Shown one piece after another: positions 15,943 to 41,468 of a stretch of DNA of 64,000 nucleotides (the first letter of the stretch is position 1; the number at the start of each line of letters is the position of its first letter). The position numbers were made by a program, and so were the translations under genes. A model generated the notes under the pieces. The model did no database searches. It saw only the letters and a program-made list of their open reading frames with translations, and was not told the DNA's origin. Origin of the DNA: Sialis fuliginosa (Eukaryota > Arthropoda > Insecta > Megaloptera > Sialidae). The stretch covers positions 9,992,701 to 10,056,700 of the forward strand of contig OY540816.1 of NCBI GenBank assembly GCA_961205875.1, read 5' to 3'.

Positions 15943-16752
15943 ATATTAATATCAATAAAATTGAAAAGCCTGTCTATTAATTTAAGGAATAACGCGTTTA
16001 CTTTTTTGCAATTTGCTCTTTGTTTTCGTTATTTATTATGATTTGTACAAACAGAAAAAAGTGAATATTCACCATTTGTTTTATTCATACATATTTTAAA
16101 AACTTTAATTAAAAAATTTTAATTGTCATTGCATAGAGAATATATTCTAACATACTGTTATTTTTGTTTCAATTAAATTAATTAATATTTACAGGCGAAA
16201 TCGTGGAAATACGAAATGTATTTTTTTTTATTGTATGAAATTTTTCACTCATTAAAACTGGTTAAATGTTTTAATTTCTACTATGTACCTTGTAGATCTA
16301 ATATACTATAACAATAACTTGAAACCAAAACTATACTGATTGTAATTTACACTAGCGCGTAAAATGATCGCTGCGTGTTTAGCTCCCCTCCAATCGTATC
16401 ACATTTCCACGGGGGTGGCTCAATTTTTAGTCGATACGGTACTATACGTTGTTTTGAATTTTAAAATTAATTAATAATAAATGTTTTATATTGTCTTTAA
16501 ATGTATTTCAGTGATAATTGATTAACAGAGAAATGTCTATTTGGAACGATCATCTCTCATACATACTAAATTCAATTGTTATTTAAAGCATATTTGCATA
16601 TTATAAATTTTCAACTGACGCCTCTGGGATAATATGCGATTTTGACAATTAAGAAAAGATGGCCGCCGTAAAATTTTGGTAATTTTTATGTTTAATTGTT
16701 ATGTATCCATAGTCTTTCTTAATCAGTCGGACTTTCAGTTTCTGGGTTATTC
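15943..16752. other. AT-rich sequence before the foldback element
   Basis: No gene recognised. The last 9 bp are the left target duplication. Confidence 0.4.
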
Positions 16753-16996
16753 ATGTATATAAAGTTAGCAGGGTACTTTTAGCAGGATCAAAAAAAAAGT
16801 ATTTGTCATTTTGTCACTTTTTTGTCGCTATTTTGTCCCGCCAGAATTAATTTTGTACCTTGAGCCGTTTTCAAAAAACTAAGACCCTGCTAACTTTAAT
16901 CTAAAGTTAGCAGGGTTCGCGATATCTCAGCCACTATTAAAGCTAGAGTAAAAATTTTTGTGTCCGAATTTGTTACTTGGGCAGTTCTTTCGGCTC

Positions 16997-17067
<71 letters not shown>

Positions 17068-17169
17068 GTTAGAAATGTATGTACATGAAGGTTATAGCCA
17101 ATGCATCCAGTACACATTTATGAGTTAATTCTGATGAAAATTAGTGACTAATTACAACTCAACTTAAAT

Positions 17170-19455
17170 TAAAGAATATTCTATCTATTTTACATAAAAC
17201 CTCCATAAAAATAATTTGATTCCGGAAACAAATTATTTCAGGCTCTCGACTATTTAAATAAGGTCTAAAAAAGATAATGATACACATTTGAGTAGGGTCT
17301 GCTGAGAGTAACAAATTAAAAGTTCGTTTTAATATTTAAAATTGAAAAATATTCTATCTATTTTACATAAAACCTCCATAAAAATAATATGATTCCGGAA
17401 ACAAATTATTTTCTGCTCTCGACTATTGAAATAAGGTCTAGAAAAGACACTGACACTCATTTGATTAGGGTCTGCTGAGAGTAACAAATTAAAAGTTCGT
17501 TTTAATATTTAAAATTGACGAAAATTCTATCTATTTTACATAAAACCTCCATAAAAATAATATGATTCTGGAAACAAATTATTTTCTGCTCTCAACTATT
17601 GAAATAAGGTCTAAAAAAGACAATGACCCTCGTTTGAGTAGAGTCTGCTAAGAGTAACAAATTAAAAGTTCGTTTTAATATTTAAAATTGACGAATATTC
17701 TATCTATTTTTCATATAAACCTACAAAAAAATAATATGATTCTGGAAACAAATTATTTAAGGCTCTCAATTATTTAAATAAGGTCTAAAAAAGACAATGA
17801 CACTCATTTAATTAGGGTCTGCTGAGAGTAACAAATTAAAAGTTCTTTTTAATATTTTTTTTTTTTTTTGCGTTAGAAATGTAAGTACATGAAGGTTATA
17901 GCCAATGCATCCAGTACACATTTATGAGTTAATTCTGATGATAATTAGTGACTAATTACAACTAAACTAAAATTGAAGAATATTCTATCTATTTTACATA
18001 AAAACCATAAAAATAATATGATTCCGGAAACAAATTATTTCAGGCTCTCGACTATTTAAATAAGGTCTAAAAACGATAATGACACTCATTTGAGTAGGGT
18101 CTGCTGAGAGTAACAAATTAAAAGTTCGTTTTAATATTTAAAATTGAAGAATATTCTATCTATTTTACATAAAACCTCCATAAAAATAATATGATTCCGG
18201 AAACATTTTATTTTCTGCTCTCGACTATTGAAATAAGGTCTAAAAAAGACAATGACACTCATTTGATTAGGGTCTGCTGAGAGTAACAAATTAAAAGTTC
18301 GTTTTAATATTTAAAATTGACGAAAATTCTATCTATTTTTCAAATAAACCTACAAAAAAATAATATGATTCTGGAAACAAATTATTTAAGGCTCTCGACT
18401 ATTTAAATAAGGTCTAAAAAAGACAATGACACTCATTTGAGTAGGGTCTGCTGTGAGTAACAAATTAAAAGTTCGTTTTAATATTTAAAATTGACGAATA
18501 TTCTATCTATTTAACATAAAACCTCCATAAAAATAATATGATTCCGGAAAAAAATTATTTCAGGCTCTCGACTATTTAAATAAAGTCTAAAAAAGACAAT
18601 GACACTCATTTGAGTAGGGTCTGCTGAGAATAACAAATTAAAAGTTCGTTTTAATATTTAAAATTGAAGAATATTCTATCTATTTTACATAAAACCTCCA
18701 TAAAAATATTATGATTCCAGAAACAAATTATTTCCTGCTCTCAACTATTTAAATAAGGTCTAAAAAAGACAATGACACTCATTTGAGTAGGGTCTGCTGA
18801 GAGTAACAAATTAAAAGTTCGTTTTAATTTTTAAAATTGCAGAATATTCTATCTATTTTACATAAAACCTCCATAAAAATAATTTGATTCCGGAAACATT
18901 TTATTTTCTGCTCTCGACTATTGAAATAAGGTCTAAAAAAGACAATGACCGTCGTTTGAGTATAGTCTGCTGAGAGTAACAAATTAAAAGTTCGAAGTAA
19001 TATTTAAAATTGACGAATATTCTATCAATTTTTCATATAAACCTACAAAAAAATAATATGATTCCGGAAACAAATTATTTAAGGCTCTCGACTATTGAAA
19101 CAAGGTCTAAAAAAGACAATGACACTCATTTGAGTAGGGTCTGCTGAGAGTAACAAACTAAAAGTTCGTTTTAATATTTAAAATTGACGAATATTCCATC
19201 TATTTTTCATAAAATCCTACAAAAAAATAATATGATTCTGGAAACAAATTATTTAAGGCTTTCAATTATTTAAATAAGGTCTAAAAAAGACAATGACACT
19301 CATTTTATTAGGGTCTGCTGAGAGTAACAAATTAAAAGTTCGAATAAATATTTAAAATTGACGAATATTCCATCTATTTTTCAAATAAACCTACAAAAAA
19401 ATAATGTGATTCTGGAAACAAATTATTTAAGGCTCTCGACTATTTAAATAAACCT
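17170..19455 (+). repeat. Left tandem array of the 173-bp unit (about 13 copies)
   Basis: The anchor ATTCTATC recurs at 17178, 17351, 17524 and 17697, exactly 173 bp apart, then after an insertion at about 17981, 18152, 18326, 18499, 18672, 18845 and onward to about 19367 (the last few with C for T). Each unit contains GGTCTGCTGAGAGTAACAAA and CTCGACTATTTAAATAAGG. Copies differ by scattered substitutions and by a two-version polymorphism (ACATAAAACCTCC versus CATATAAACCTAC). Confidence 0.9.
17852..17985 (+). repeat. Internal copy of the foldback subterminal block inside the left array
   Basis: A shorter poly-T run followed by GCGTTAGAAATGTAAGTAC and the next about 110 bp repeats the sequence just inside the T66 block at 17066-17170. 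It interrupts the 173-bp array once in the left arm; I see no equivalent in the right arm. Confidence 0.85.
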
Positions 19456-19484
19456 CCATAAAAATATTATGATGTCTTATGTCT

Positions 19485-21510
19485 TTTTTAGACCTTATTT
19501 CAATAGTTGAGAGCCTTATAAAAATTTGTTTCCGGAATCAAAATATTTTTATGGAGGTTTTATATAACAAAGATAAAATATTCGTCAAGTATAAATATAA
19601 AAAACGAACTTTTAATTTGTTACTCTCAGCAGACCCTAATCAAATGAGTGTCATTGTCTTTTTTAGACCTTATTTCAATAGTCGAGAGCCTTAAATAATT
19701 TGTTTCCAGAATCATATAATTTTTATGAAGGTTTTATGTAAAATAGATAAAATTTTCGTCAATTTTAAATATTAAAACGAACTTTTAATTTGTTACTCTC
19801 AGCAGACCCTACACAAATGAGTGTCATTGTCTTTTTTAGACCTTATTTCAATAGTCGAGGGCCTTAAATAATTTGTTTCCTGAATCATATTATTTTTAAG
19901 GAGGTTTTATGTAAAATAGATAGAATTTTCGTCAATTTTAAATATTAAAACGAACTTTTAATTTGTTACTCTCAGCAGACCCTACACAAATGAGTGTCAT
20001 TGTCTTTTTTAGACCTTATTTCAATAGTCGAGGGCCTTAAATAATTTGTTTTCTGAATCATATTATTTTTATGGAGGTTTTATGTAAAATAGATAGAATT
20101 TTCGTCAATTTTAAATATTAAAACGAACTTTTAATTTGTTACTCTCAGCAGACCCTAATCAAATGAGTGTCATTGTCTTTTTTAGTCCTTATTTTAATAA
20201 TCGAGAGCCATAAATAATTTGTTTCCAGAATCATATTATTTTTATGGAGGTTTTATGTAAAATAGATAGAATTTTCGTCAATTTTAAATATTAAAACGAA
20301 CTTTTAATTTGTTACTCTCAGCAGACCCTACACAAATGAGTGTCATTGTCTTTTTTAGACCTTATTTTAATAGTTGAGAGCCTTAAATAATTTGTTTCCT
20401 GAATCATATTATTTTTATGGAGTTTTTATGTAAAATAGATAGAATTTTCGTCAATTTTAAATATTAATTCGAATTTTTAATTTGTTACTCTCAGCAGACC
20501 CTAATCAAATGAGTGTCATTGTCTTTTTTAGACCTTATTTAAATAATTGAGAGCCTTAAATAATTTGTTTCCAGAATCATATTATTTTTATGGAGGTTTT
20601 ATGTAAAATAGATAGAATTTTCGTCAATTTTAAATATTAAAACGAACTTTTAATTTGTTACTCTCAGCAGACCCTAATCAAATGAGTGTCATTGTCTTTT
20701 TTAGACCTTATTTAAATAGTTGAGAGCCTTAAATAATTTGTTTCCAGAATCATATTATTTTTTTCTAGGTTTATATGAAAAATAGATAGAATATTCGTCA
20801 ATTTTAAATATTAAAACGAACTTTTAATTTGTTACTCTCAGCAGACCCTAATTAAATGAGTGTCATTATCTTTTTTAGACCGTATTTAAATAATTGAGAG
20901 TCTTAAATAATTTGTTTCCAGAATCATATTATTTTTTTGTAGGTTTATATGAAAAATAGATAGAATATTCGTCAATTTTAAATATTAAAACGAACTTTTA
21001 ATTTGTTACTCTCAGCAGACCCTAATTAAATGAGTGTCATTATCTTGTTTAGACCGTATTTAAATAATTGAGAGTCTTAAATAATTTGTTTCCAGAATCA
21101 TATTATTTTTTTGTAGGTTTATATGAAAAATAGATAGAATTTTCGTCAATTTTAAATATTAAAACGAACTTTTAATTTGTTACTCTCAGCAGACCCTAAT
21201 CAAATGACTGTCAGTGTCTTTTTTAGACCTTATTTCAATAGTCGAGAGCCTTAAATAATTTGTTTCCGGAATCATATTATTTTTATGGAGGTTTTATGTA
21301 AAATAGATAGAATATTTTTCAATTTTAAATATTAAAACGAACTTTTAATTTAGTTTAGCAGCATTTAGTTAGCAGACCCTACTCAAATGTGTGTCATTAT
21401 CTTTTTTAGACCTTATTTAAATAGTCGAGAGCCTGAAATAATTTGTTTCCGGAATCATATTTTTTTTATGGAGGTTTTATGTAAAATAGATAGAATATTC
21501 TTCAATGTAA
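19485..21510 (-). repeat. Right tandem array of the 173-bp unit in reverse orientation (about 12 copies)
   Basis: The inverse anchor (GATAGAAT or close) recurs about every 173 bp at about 19570, 19745, 19917, 20091, 20265 and on to 21490. Both sub-versions of the unit found in the left array occur here, so the arms diversified together or were homogenised. Confidence 0.9.
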
Positions 21511-21606
21511 GTTTAGTTGTAATTAGTCACTAATTATCATCAGAATTAACTCATGAATTTGTACTGGATGCATTAGCTATAACCTTCATGTACTTACATT
21601 TCTAAC

Positions 21607-21667
<61 letters not shown>

Positions 21668-21920
21668 GAGCCGAAAGAACTGCCCAAGTAACAAATTCGG
21701 ACACAAAAATTTTTACTCTAGCTTTAATAGTGGCTGAGATATCGCGAACCCTGCTAACTTTAGATTAAAGTTAGCAGGGTCTTAGTTTTTTGAAAACGGC
21801 TCAAGGTACAAAATTAATTCTGGCGGGACAAAATAGCGACAAAAAAGTGACAAAATGACAAATACTTTTTTTTTGATCCTGCTAAAAGTACCCTGCTAAC
21901 TTTATATACATGGGTTATTC

Positions 21921-35780: not shown

Positions 35781-36347
35781 GCGCCGAAGCGAAACCATCG
35801 GAAATAAGTGTAAATAGTTCCTCTTGAATGTGGCTTATCAAATAATAATAATATAATAAACAGTGAAGTATTTTTTTTATTAAAATCAATAAACACTGTT
35901 CAAATTATAGATATATTTTTTTAAAGAAAATTGTTATTCCTAGCCTAACGGTTCCTATAAATTAACAAATACATTCCTAATAATTGAGTTCCTATTTTAA
36001 TTAGAAAAGTGTGAATGTGCTACAAGAAATAAATAATTAGTATTTATATATATATTTATTACCTCGCACAGTTATAAAATATATCGTTTTGTAAAAAGTT
36101 ATGCCAAATGTAGTATAGTGTATACGAATTACAGCCAAAATTAATATACTCGATATACATTAAATTATATAATATATTAATAACTAGTACTTAAGAAATT
36201 AAAGACTTTTAATACTCGCAATGCAATAAATAAATATTCATTATAAATTTCGATTTCCGGTATTTAAAATACAACATATTTATAAAATATAAAAATGCAA
36301 TAATAAATAAAACAAGTTAAAAGTGTTATACATCAAACAAAGGGAAA
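35781..36347 (+). other. AT-rich probable 5' untranslated sequence before exon 1
   Basis: Contains many stops in all frames, an AT repeat near 36040-36060 and several TATAAA-like words, none of which can be chosen as a TATA box. The ATG at 36348 is preceded by a purine-rich AAGGGAAA. Confidence 0.35.
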
Positions 36348-36677
36348 ATGACAGCTTCAAGTTCTTTAATAGACATCGATTCTTGTACAACAGACAGCTC
36401 CACAGAATATTCGAACAACAATTTCGAAGAAAAAATGACGGACAACGAATACAACAGCAGTGCCAAAGACAGATTCGAAGCAAAAGAAAAATTAGAAGTC
36501 ACCAAAACGGACTCCAGTGTTAGATCGGTGGACAAAGGTTTTGAATCAACTGCTACGGGTTTTAACAACCCTTTCTACCTACCAGCAAACCTGTACAAGA
36601 CTCTATTAGCAAAGGCCGTGCTCGCGAAAAATGATTGCGCTTTTAATTATTTCGAGAATGGAGTTCCATGTGACAAG
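36348..36677 (+). CDS. Exon 1 (start codon to donor) of an unrecognised transcription-factor-like gene
   Basis: Encodes residues 1-110, starting at ATG 36348 in the context AAAATGAC. The reading frame runs past the exon to a stop at 36684, but a splice donor (CAAG then GTGTGT at 36678) ends the exon exactly on a codon boundary. Residues 1-75 are rich in Ser, Thr, Asp, Glu and Lys and look disordered. Residues about 75-105 are more ordered and hydrophobic, with PFYLPANLYKTLLAKAVLA followed by a Cys/Phe/Tyr patch ending GVPCDK. No signal peptide or membrane segment is visible. Codon use is balanced and base composition is clearly richer in G+C than the flanks, which supports coding. The joined protein with exon 2 reads in phase 0. 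I do not recognise the family. The composition and very long introns suit an insect developmental regulator, and a posterior Hox (Abd-B-like) N-terminus is an untested guess. Reverse-strand frames over the same bases are shadows. Confidence 0.8.
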
Positions 36678-36935
36678 GTGTGTTGATAAAAATTTTGGGA
36701 TACAATACTGAAATGTAAAGCATGTCAGTTATAGTTGGTATACTGAACTACATGAAATTGATCTATGGACGGCCATATGCAATATTCTTTTTATTATACA
36801 AATTTAATAAAATAAATTCTGGAATGTACATATTTTGAAAAAAAAAAATTTTTTTTTAACATAATTGTTTTGATTATAATTTTTTTTTGTAATATTGGAG
36901 ATAAAATATTAAGGGGTGCATATCAGACGCAACAG

Positions 36936-40920: not shown

Positions 40921-41035
40921 CACAAAAACCCCCAAATGAGAATTTTCACGATCATGTAAATGTATGCTTCAAAGAGTTAATTTGTACTTGGCTATTTTGA
41001 CCTGAGCCCATATTTATGCGTCTCATTGTTTACAG

Positions 41036-41359
41036 AAGGCGTTCGTCGGCTGGGGTGCAAGCAGTGCTGGTGACGTTGGCCAACAATCAAGTCCGGGCGG
41101 ATGCGGATCTGGCGCGGGCGGCGGCACAGACTGTTCTCTGAGCGGCCAAGCGGCACAACAACAGCAACAGCAGCAACCAGGCGGCGGACAGCAGCTCAAC
41201 ACCGGCGGAGGAGCTCAGCAGACCACGCCGACGTCAAGTCTAGCTCACTGGATGTCCGTCATGGCGGAACACATGGGCCACCACGCTCATCACGCGGACC
41301 CCGCGGCCGCTGTGGGCGTGCACTACATGGCCGCGGCAGCGTGGTCCACCAACCAAGAG
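41036..41359 (+). CDS. Exon 2 of the same gene; Gly-, Gln-, His- and Ala-rich segment
   Basis: Encodes residues 111-218, phase 0 at both ends. The acceptor is a pyrimidine-containing TTGTTTACAG ending at 41035 and the donor is GAG followed by GTAAAC at 41360. Order of segments: KAFVGWGASSAGDVG at 111-125; a Gly/Ser-rich stretch; seven consecutive Gln at 151-157; a second Gly/Gln stretch; TPTSSLAHWMSVMAEHM at 174-190; a His cluster (GHHAHHA); VGVHYM and AAAAW at 203-213; then STNQE. This is the most GC-rich 300 bp in the window, in sharp contrast with the AT-rich introns, and the frame is fully open. The Trp/Met-containing block between low-complexity stretches may be a short conserved interaction motif; that is inference. 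No DNA-binding domain is present, so further exons must lie more than 22.6 kb downstream, outside the window. Overlapping frames on both strands (41101-41421 and 41259-41528) are shadows. Confidence 0.8.
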
Positions 41360-41468
41360 GTAAACAAACTCTTATATCTCTGTGTCTTAAACTAACTTCT
41401 CTCTTTTCATTCGTAACGTAATTTGGAAACCACGGGACTTTCTTATACGTAATCTTAACAGTGTATAG

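Follow-up and report, generated by a model that had tools for sequence, protein, structure and literature searches.

The window analysed here is a 64,000-nucleotide stretch of the alderfly Sialis fuliginosa (assembly GCA_961205875.1, contig OY540816.1, positions 9,992,701 to 10,056,700), and it carries a 5159-bp element at 16753-21911 that is bracketed by exact 9-bp copies of GGGTTATTC. These two copies, at 16744-16752 and 21912-21920, are the only ones in the whole window and represent a target site duplication (TSD). The left end of the element is ATGTATATAAAGTTAGCAGGG and its right end is the reverse complement of ATGTATATAAAGTTAGCAGGG. Two arms of 2711 and 2448 bp face each other, and an end-to-end alignment showed them to be equal at 2276 of 2425 positions (93.9%). 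Reading inwards, each arm consists of a 246-bp outer terminal inverted repeat (TIR), a poly-T tract (66 T on the left and 56 on the right), a spacer of ~100 bp and an array of 173-bp units. The 246-bp TIRs of the two arms agree at every position (100% identity), and their spacers inside the poly-T are nearly identical. Long, internally repetitive TIRs make up most of the element, which is the form that characterises foldback transposons.

The left outer TIR (16753-16998, plus strand) begins with ATGTATATAAAGTTAGCAGGGTAC, the terminus that was recovered at 35 facing pairs genome-wide, and is followed on the same strand by the poly-T (17000-17065), the inner spacer (17066-17165, lying within the first copy of a repeat family termed D4) and the tandem array, which Tandem Repeats Finder (TRF) reported in two parts at 17166-17857 and 17968-19451. 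The left array is broken by a second copy of the spacer (D4, 17843-18003, plus strand, 94% identical to the first). At the centre (19452-19479), the arrays of both arms meet head to head. The right arm lies on the minus strand and comprises the inverted array (TRF, 19480-21506), the inner spacer (21507-21608), a run of 56 A that mirrors the left poly-T (21609-21664), and the right outer TIR (21666-21911), which is identical to the left one. AAAGTTAGCAGGGT occurs three times without mismatch in each TIR, once near the end and twice, in opposed orientation, inside a 33-bp near-palindrome (16884-16916 and 21748-21780; the repeat D5), which is a candidate transposase-binding site. A first, sequence-only reading of this DNA had described the arms as tandem 173-bp arrays; the arrays are present, but the TIR, the poly-T and the spacer lie outside them, and the left array is interrupted.

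Searching the 392-Mb assembly from which the window was taken (20 contigs) with a 29-bp version of the terminus gave 79 matches with at most two mismatches and none for a reversed control, so the ends of the element are not a product of chance. A 22-bp version with at most three mismatches gave 136 matches and 18 for the control, including termini of a sister family described below; 100 of the 136 were listed, and the copy number is therefore a lower bound. At least 35 facing pairs of termini were matched by eye from these listings, and the flanks of all 35 were checked: 21 copies were read whole (the window copy and L009-L028), nine by their ends, and five small copies whole. An exact 9-bp TSD was found in 29 of the 35 pairs (20 of 21 read whole, 8 of 9 read by their ends, 1 of 5 small), and the 29 targets all differ from one another. 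The TSD of L012 is 8 bp long, a pair spanning 24 kb has a TSD matching at eight of nine bases, and the small copy L063 has a 9-bp flank match once the flanks are offset by 4 bp, the last two being read by eye. At least nine unpaired termini with no mismatch were present among the matches listed, plus others with mismatches, and four unpaired termini were fetched in part. As separate observations, the flanks of the 1727-bp copy L066 (G000:C14:2370680-2372526) are mutual reverse complements, TGTCACAC and GTGTGACA, with no direct duplication, and two targets resemble each other by eye, AGTTTCTGGGTTATTCA (window 16735-16752) and AGTTTCAGGTTATTCA (L052, G000:C7:8860749-8860829), as a shared repeat or a target preference might produce.

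Empty sites were sought by joining the flanks of 21 copies with a single target, allowing mismatches in the target, and comparing them with the DNA fetched for the analysis. For four of the 21 copies, the joined flanks cross the junction in related sequence that has the target once: L014 matches L074 at 91% over 211 bp, L022 matches L073 at 75%, and two copies find their counterpart in the window itself, L015 at 82% and L023 at 79%, the match for L023 extending just 21 bases past the junction. Dispersed copies, TSDs and empty sites thus all mark the element as mobile, and it is the whole foldback, not a single arm, that inserts with a 9-bp target duplication. The sequence-only reading had held that the 5159-bp structure moved as one unit, which the exact GGGTTATTC flanks, the sibling copies and the empty sites support, and its proposed check, a second copy with different 9-bp flanks, was passed many times over. 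Its remark that such elements are usually lost in assemblies was not borne out here, as 35 facing pairs were assembled.

The centre seen in the window copy is kept in 19 of the 21 fetched copies and at three further loci (L072, L077 and L078), with one array ending at about unit position 63 (56-63) and the other at about 130 (115-130). The 19 copies that keep it have between 4 and 38 units per arm. L015 has lost the inversion and carries 21 units all in one direction, L024 is a 986-bp deletion form, and L010 has an extra TIR-related stretch in each arm. Of the 21 copies, 20 have a poly-T of at least 15 T in one arm or both, and the tract between TIR and spacer reaches 80 T in some (its counterparts in the window are at 17000-17065 and 21609-21664). 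In none of the 21 whole-read copies does a stop-to-stop open reading frame (ORF) reach 100 aa. The widest pairs were also inspected. A 17.4-kb pair (L072/L067/L073, G000:C3:33342340-33359788) is an ordinary foldback with an exact 9-bp TSD, and its right arm includes ~10.5 kb of DNA not belonging to the family; the parts of the pair that were read contain no ORF reaching 100 aa. The 24-kb pair is a decayed copy, and the ~14 of its 24 kb that were fetched have ORFs of at least 100 aa with lengths of 103, 142 and 139 aa. Across the window, Rfam and tRNA scans returned nothing and five ORFs had no Pfam match; two open frames without a Pfam match, at 41006-41395 and 36321-36686, look like exons, and one of them is rich in Q, G and H.

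Substitutions in the TIRs were surveyed in 20 copies, leaving out L024, as a guide to age and descent. There were 86 variant sites, 60 of them private to one arm and 26 common to several copies, and a search for arm homogenisation after insertion found no substitution private to both arms of any of these copies. The right arms of L015 and L022 hold 38 of the 60 private substitutions, in a diverged stretch, and the other 38 arms hold just 22 in ~9.3 kb. Ten of the 20 copies, including the window copy, have no private substitution at all. In L015 and L022 this stretch covers about TIR positions 196-245 and is confined to one arm; many of its substitutions occur in both copies.

Sibling copies could be recognised by their units. 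L012, L023 and L028, which lie on contigs C1, C4 and C5, have TIR substitutions in common, at positions 87 and 144 in the arm whose array ends near unit position 63 and at position 188 in the arm ending near 130. Between 15 and 18 units of their long arms and 3 to 5 of their short arms are identical. Their long arms have 38, 23 and 30 units, and their short arms five each (six by another filter). The pairs L017/L021, L013/L017 and L019/L020 likewise have identical units on both arms, as do the window copy and L027 (4 and 5 units). Eight of 22 pairs were listed in the comparison within groups, and the 149 pairs outside the groups had a mean of 0.007 identical units and a maximum of one. Most copies keep fixed ends and a fixed centre, and the array lengths of siblings differ by whole units. 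Arm-specific marks stay in place as unit counts differ, so the entire foldback moves together and its arrays are altered in units.

A sister family was found through its terminus ACGTATATAAAGTTAGCGGGGA, which gave 56 matches genome-wide with at most two mismatches and none for the control. Three sister copies were fetched (L039, L040 and L041; G000:C4:30500600-30503650 and others), measuring 2545, 2287 and 1261 bp, and all three have a 9-bp TSD. Over the longest matches (103-127 bp), the sister TIR is ~71-75% identical to that of the window family. L039 has arrays of 149-160-bp units in both arms, and self-comparison showed the same for L040. The sister unit matches, and was copied from, the TIR of its own family, whereas the 173-bp unit has short, weak matches only to its own outer TIR and no comparably clear origin. 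The pairing of related TIRs with different units suggests that related transposon ends acquired tandem arrays on more than one occasion.

Elements of this general form are known. The FB elements of Drosophila melanogaster have a 9-bp TSD and long, internally repetitive TIRs, as here; their repeat units are short and, unlike here, they are not known to carry a 173-bp array. Closer in form is Tetris of Drosophila virilis (PMC4079207). Tetris is also a non-autonomous foldback with a TSD of 8-10 bp and no transposase found, and its TIRs likewise combine an outer flanking domain with a variable number of tandem units; its authors placed it in Mutator on the strength of TSD length and form (PMC4079207). 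Its unit measures ~220 bp against 173 bp here, a comparison of length and not of sequence, and three structurally complete copies are reported from the D. virilis assembly against 35 facing pairs in the present one. The arrays described here join directly at a fixed centre with no separate middle domain seen, unlike in Tetris, and the Tetris unit, TIR-220, has 37 bp in common with the outer TIR, whereas the 173-bp unit resembles its outer TIR in the short, weak manner noted above (PMC4079207).

Rehavkus-1_TC of Tribolium (TCsat23) is alike in having inverted termini with short arrays of a ~160-bp satellite unit (PMC10218199); the TCsat23 unit is 164 bp long and occurs mostly as five and eight monomers (PMC10218199, PMC6446971), and Rehavkus has a TSD of 9 bp, as here (PMC6446971). 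Rehavkus-1_TC is, however, a 9.5-kb transposon of a group whose transposase has a PHD finger (PMC10218199, PMC6446971); unlike it, the 21 copies read here lack any ORF of 100 aa, and a transposase of that type was not found with this TIR, a comparison made by description and not by sequence. Tm1 of Meloidogyne (Mutator/Foldback, PMC3169594) and Muta1 of Aedes (PMC5225508) also have composite TIRs with tandem units, TSDs of 8-10 bp and many non-autonomous derivatives, and differ in their units of 12-15 bp and in having known copies that code for transposase. The family of the window element is a foldback family of a known kind, non-autonomous and for the most part young, nearest in form to Tetris and Rehavkus-1_TC as judged by their descriptions. 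It may be new within that kind, on the basis of a literature search by words and not by sequence.

The transposase that might serve the family was sought through the Mutator-like element (MULE) domain PF10551, which occurs at 10 loci in the assembly. The family terminus was sought in ~3.2 kb around all 10 loci. The search was repeated on longer flanks of some of them, namely 7 kb for two FLYWCH-MULE copies, 5 kb for L035 and 8 kb for three loci, and on short stretches for the others. Only short or mismatched occurrences were seen (at least three mismatches in a 14- or 15-mer), and the best TIR match, at L030, was weak (30 bp at 83%, E 1.8e-4 in a single-locus search). The FLYWCH-MULE copies, L031/L043 (C7:18231595) and L034/L042 (C8:1324415), each have a FLYWCH and MULE transposase ORF of ~480 aa, and are 95% alike. 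Inverted ends that match were not seen at these copies. L031 has a 134-bp tandem array beside its ORF; the Phantom elements of aphids are described with a minisatellite that follows the ORF (Table 1, PMC6446971). At L075 (7448-7863; G000:C12), a 162-bp tandem array has a MULE-domain fragment and a RING-finger ORF a few kb away.

The 9-bp TSD falls within the ~8-11 bp range of MULEs (PMC6446971), and the combination of a 9-bp TSD with a terminal satellite or minisatellite is that described for Rehavkus (PMC6446971, PMC10218199). No transposase was found between the same TIRs in the 21 copies or at the 10 MULE loci, and hence the element works like a MULE and cannot be said to be one. A helper of the MULE/Rehavkus class is probably the most likely source of transposase, judging by TSD length and architecture (PMC6446971, PMC10218199, PMC4079207, PMC3169594).

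Taken together, it is highly likely that the element is a recent insertion of a non-autonomous foldback DNA transposon from a multi-copy family that would be mobilised by a MULE/Rehavkus-type helper. Since none of the 21 copies has an ORF of 100 aa, I infer that the helper acts in trans; a transposase, probably Mutator-like (MULE/Rehavkus), would then recognise the AAAGTTAGCAGGGT copies within the 246-bp TIRs. Unequal exchange among units, or slippage during their replication, may shift array length, and arms may occasionally be swapped between copies.

Several observations weigh against parts of this account. No autonomous copy was found, and the family terminus is absent from the DNA fetched around all 10 MULE-domain loci; the superfamily is not fixed by TSD length alone. 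Three small copies among the 35 pairs checked (L062, L064 and L066) have no TSD, and a search for a third TIR variant with ATATAAAGTTAGCNGGH gave six matches, mostly variants of the sister terminus. The family is also not uniformly young: the TIRs of the 24-kb copy are 88-94% and its units 71-84% identical to the family modules, and small copies, such as L063, have diverged too. The two TIRs of a copy differ at a mean of 2.44 positions, compared with 4.39 when arms are shuffled among 18 copies (L015, L022 and L024 being left out), and none of 2000 shuffles was as low. This likeness is attributed to shared descent within sibling groups and could also hint at some arm homogenisation; the sibling groups themselves were drawn after the unit-sharing result had been seen. 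Finally, the window copy and L016 have nine common units in one arm and none in the other, a pattern that suggests arm exchange between copies and a descent that is not always simple whole copying.

The readings that compete with this account concern the helper, the growth of the arrays, their fate and the assembly itself. A helper from another cut-and-paste superfamily, with the foldback form having arisen independently as in Galileo, is unlikely, though it deserves to be weighed: the search around the 10 MULE loci yielded no transposase with the family TIR, and foldbacks are known from different superfamilies, Galileo being assigned to P (PMC4079207 and abstracts). Set against this, the 9-bp TSD of 29 of the 35 pairs fits Rehavkus and many MULEs, and Rehavkus is described with a minisatellite near its TIR (Table 1, PMC6446971). 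It is more doubtful still that array growth is coupled to transposition, for instance through hairpin intermediates copied during gap repair, and not due to later unequal exchange. Siblings at different sites do have arrays many units apart with TIRs nearly unchanged, but the same pattern is expected from unequal exchange or slippage, whether between insertions or after them, and not one of the 86 variant sites has a change confined to the two arms of a single copy. A reading of the arms as self-renewing, in which every transposition cycle rebuilds or resizes the 173-bp arrays (4-38 units per arm in copies that keep the centre) with TIRs and centre held fixed, is similarly doubtful; if true, array growth would belong to the mechanism of transposition and not to later decay, and each of the two sister families, whose outer TIRs are related, would have come by its own different array independently.

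The sequence-only reading had also called the element a seed for satellite DNA. That the 173-bp units have escaped from the element and now stand as free arrays could be entertained, given arms of up to 38 units and the precedent of Tetris, whose TIR-220 forms such arrays (PMC4079207), but it is very improbable here. Of 56 candidate places, 32 were scored and gave 894 matches to the unit; the 150 of the 894 that were listed fall at 27 places by my own count, all 27 in or next to foldback copies and none a free array, which speaks against a seed. Two of these places without a paired terminus, L077 and L078, proved to be foldback copies with the usual centre and TIRs. An assembly or long-read foldback artefact has a next to negligible probability. 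Such artefacts exist (PMC12870357), but one would be expected to mirror the flanks and leave no TSD, whereas the 35 pairs differ in flanks and array lengths, 29 have exact 9-bp TSDs, and empty sites were found.

On the preferred account, a foldback transposon that moves whole and presumably depends on a helper, this family is a mostly young and well-sampled case of transposon arms built of satellite-like units in a chromosome-scale assembly. As siblings can be matched unit by unit, the growth and shrinkage of foldback arms become directly testable, and the sister family, with its related TIR and different unit, suggests that arrays were gained repeatedly on related ends.

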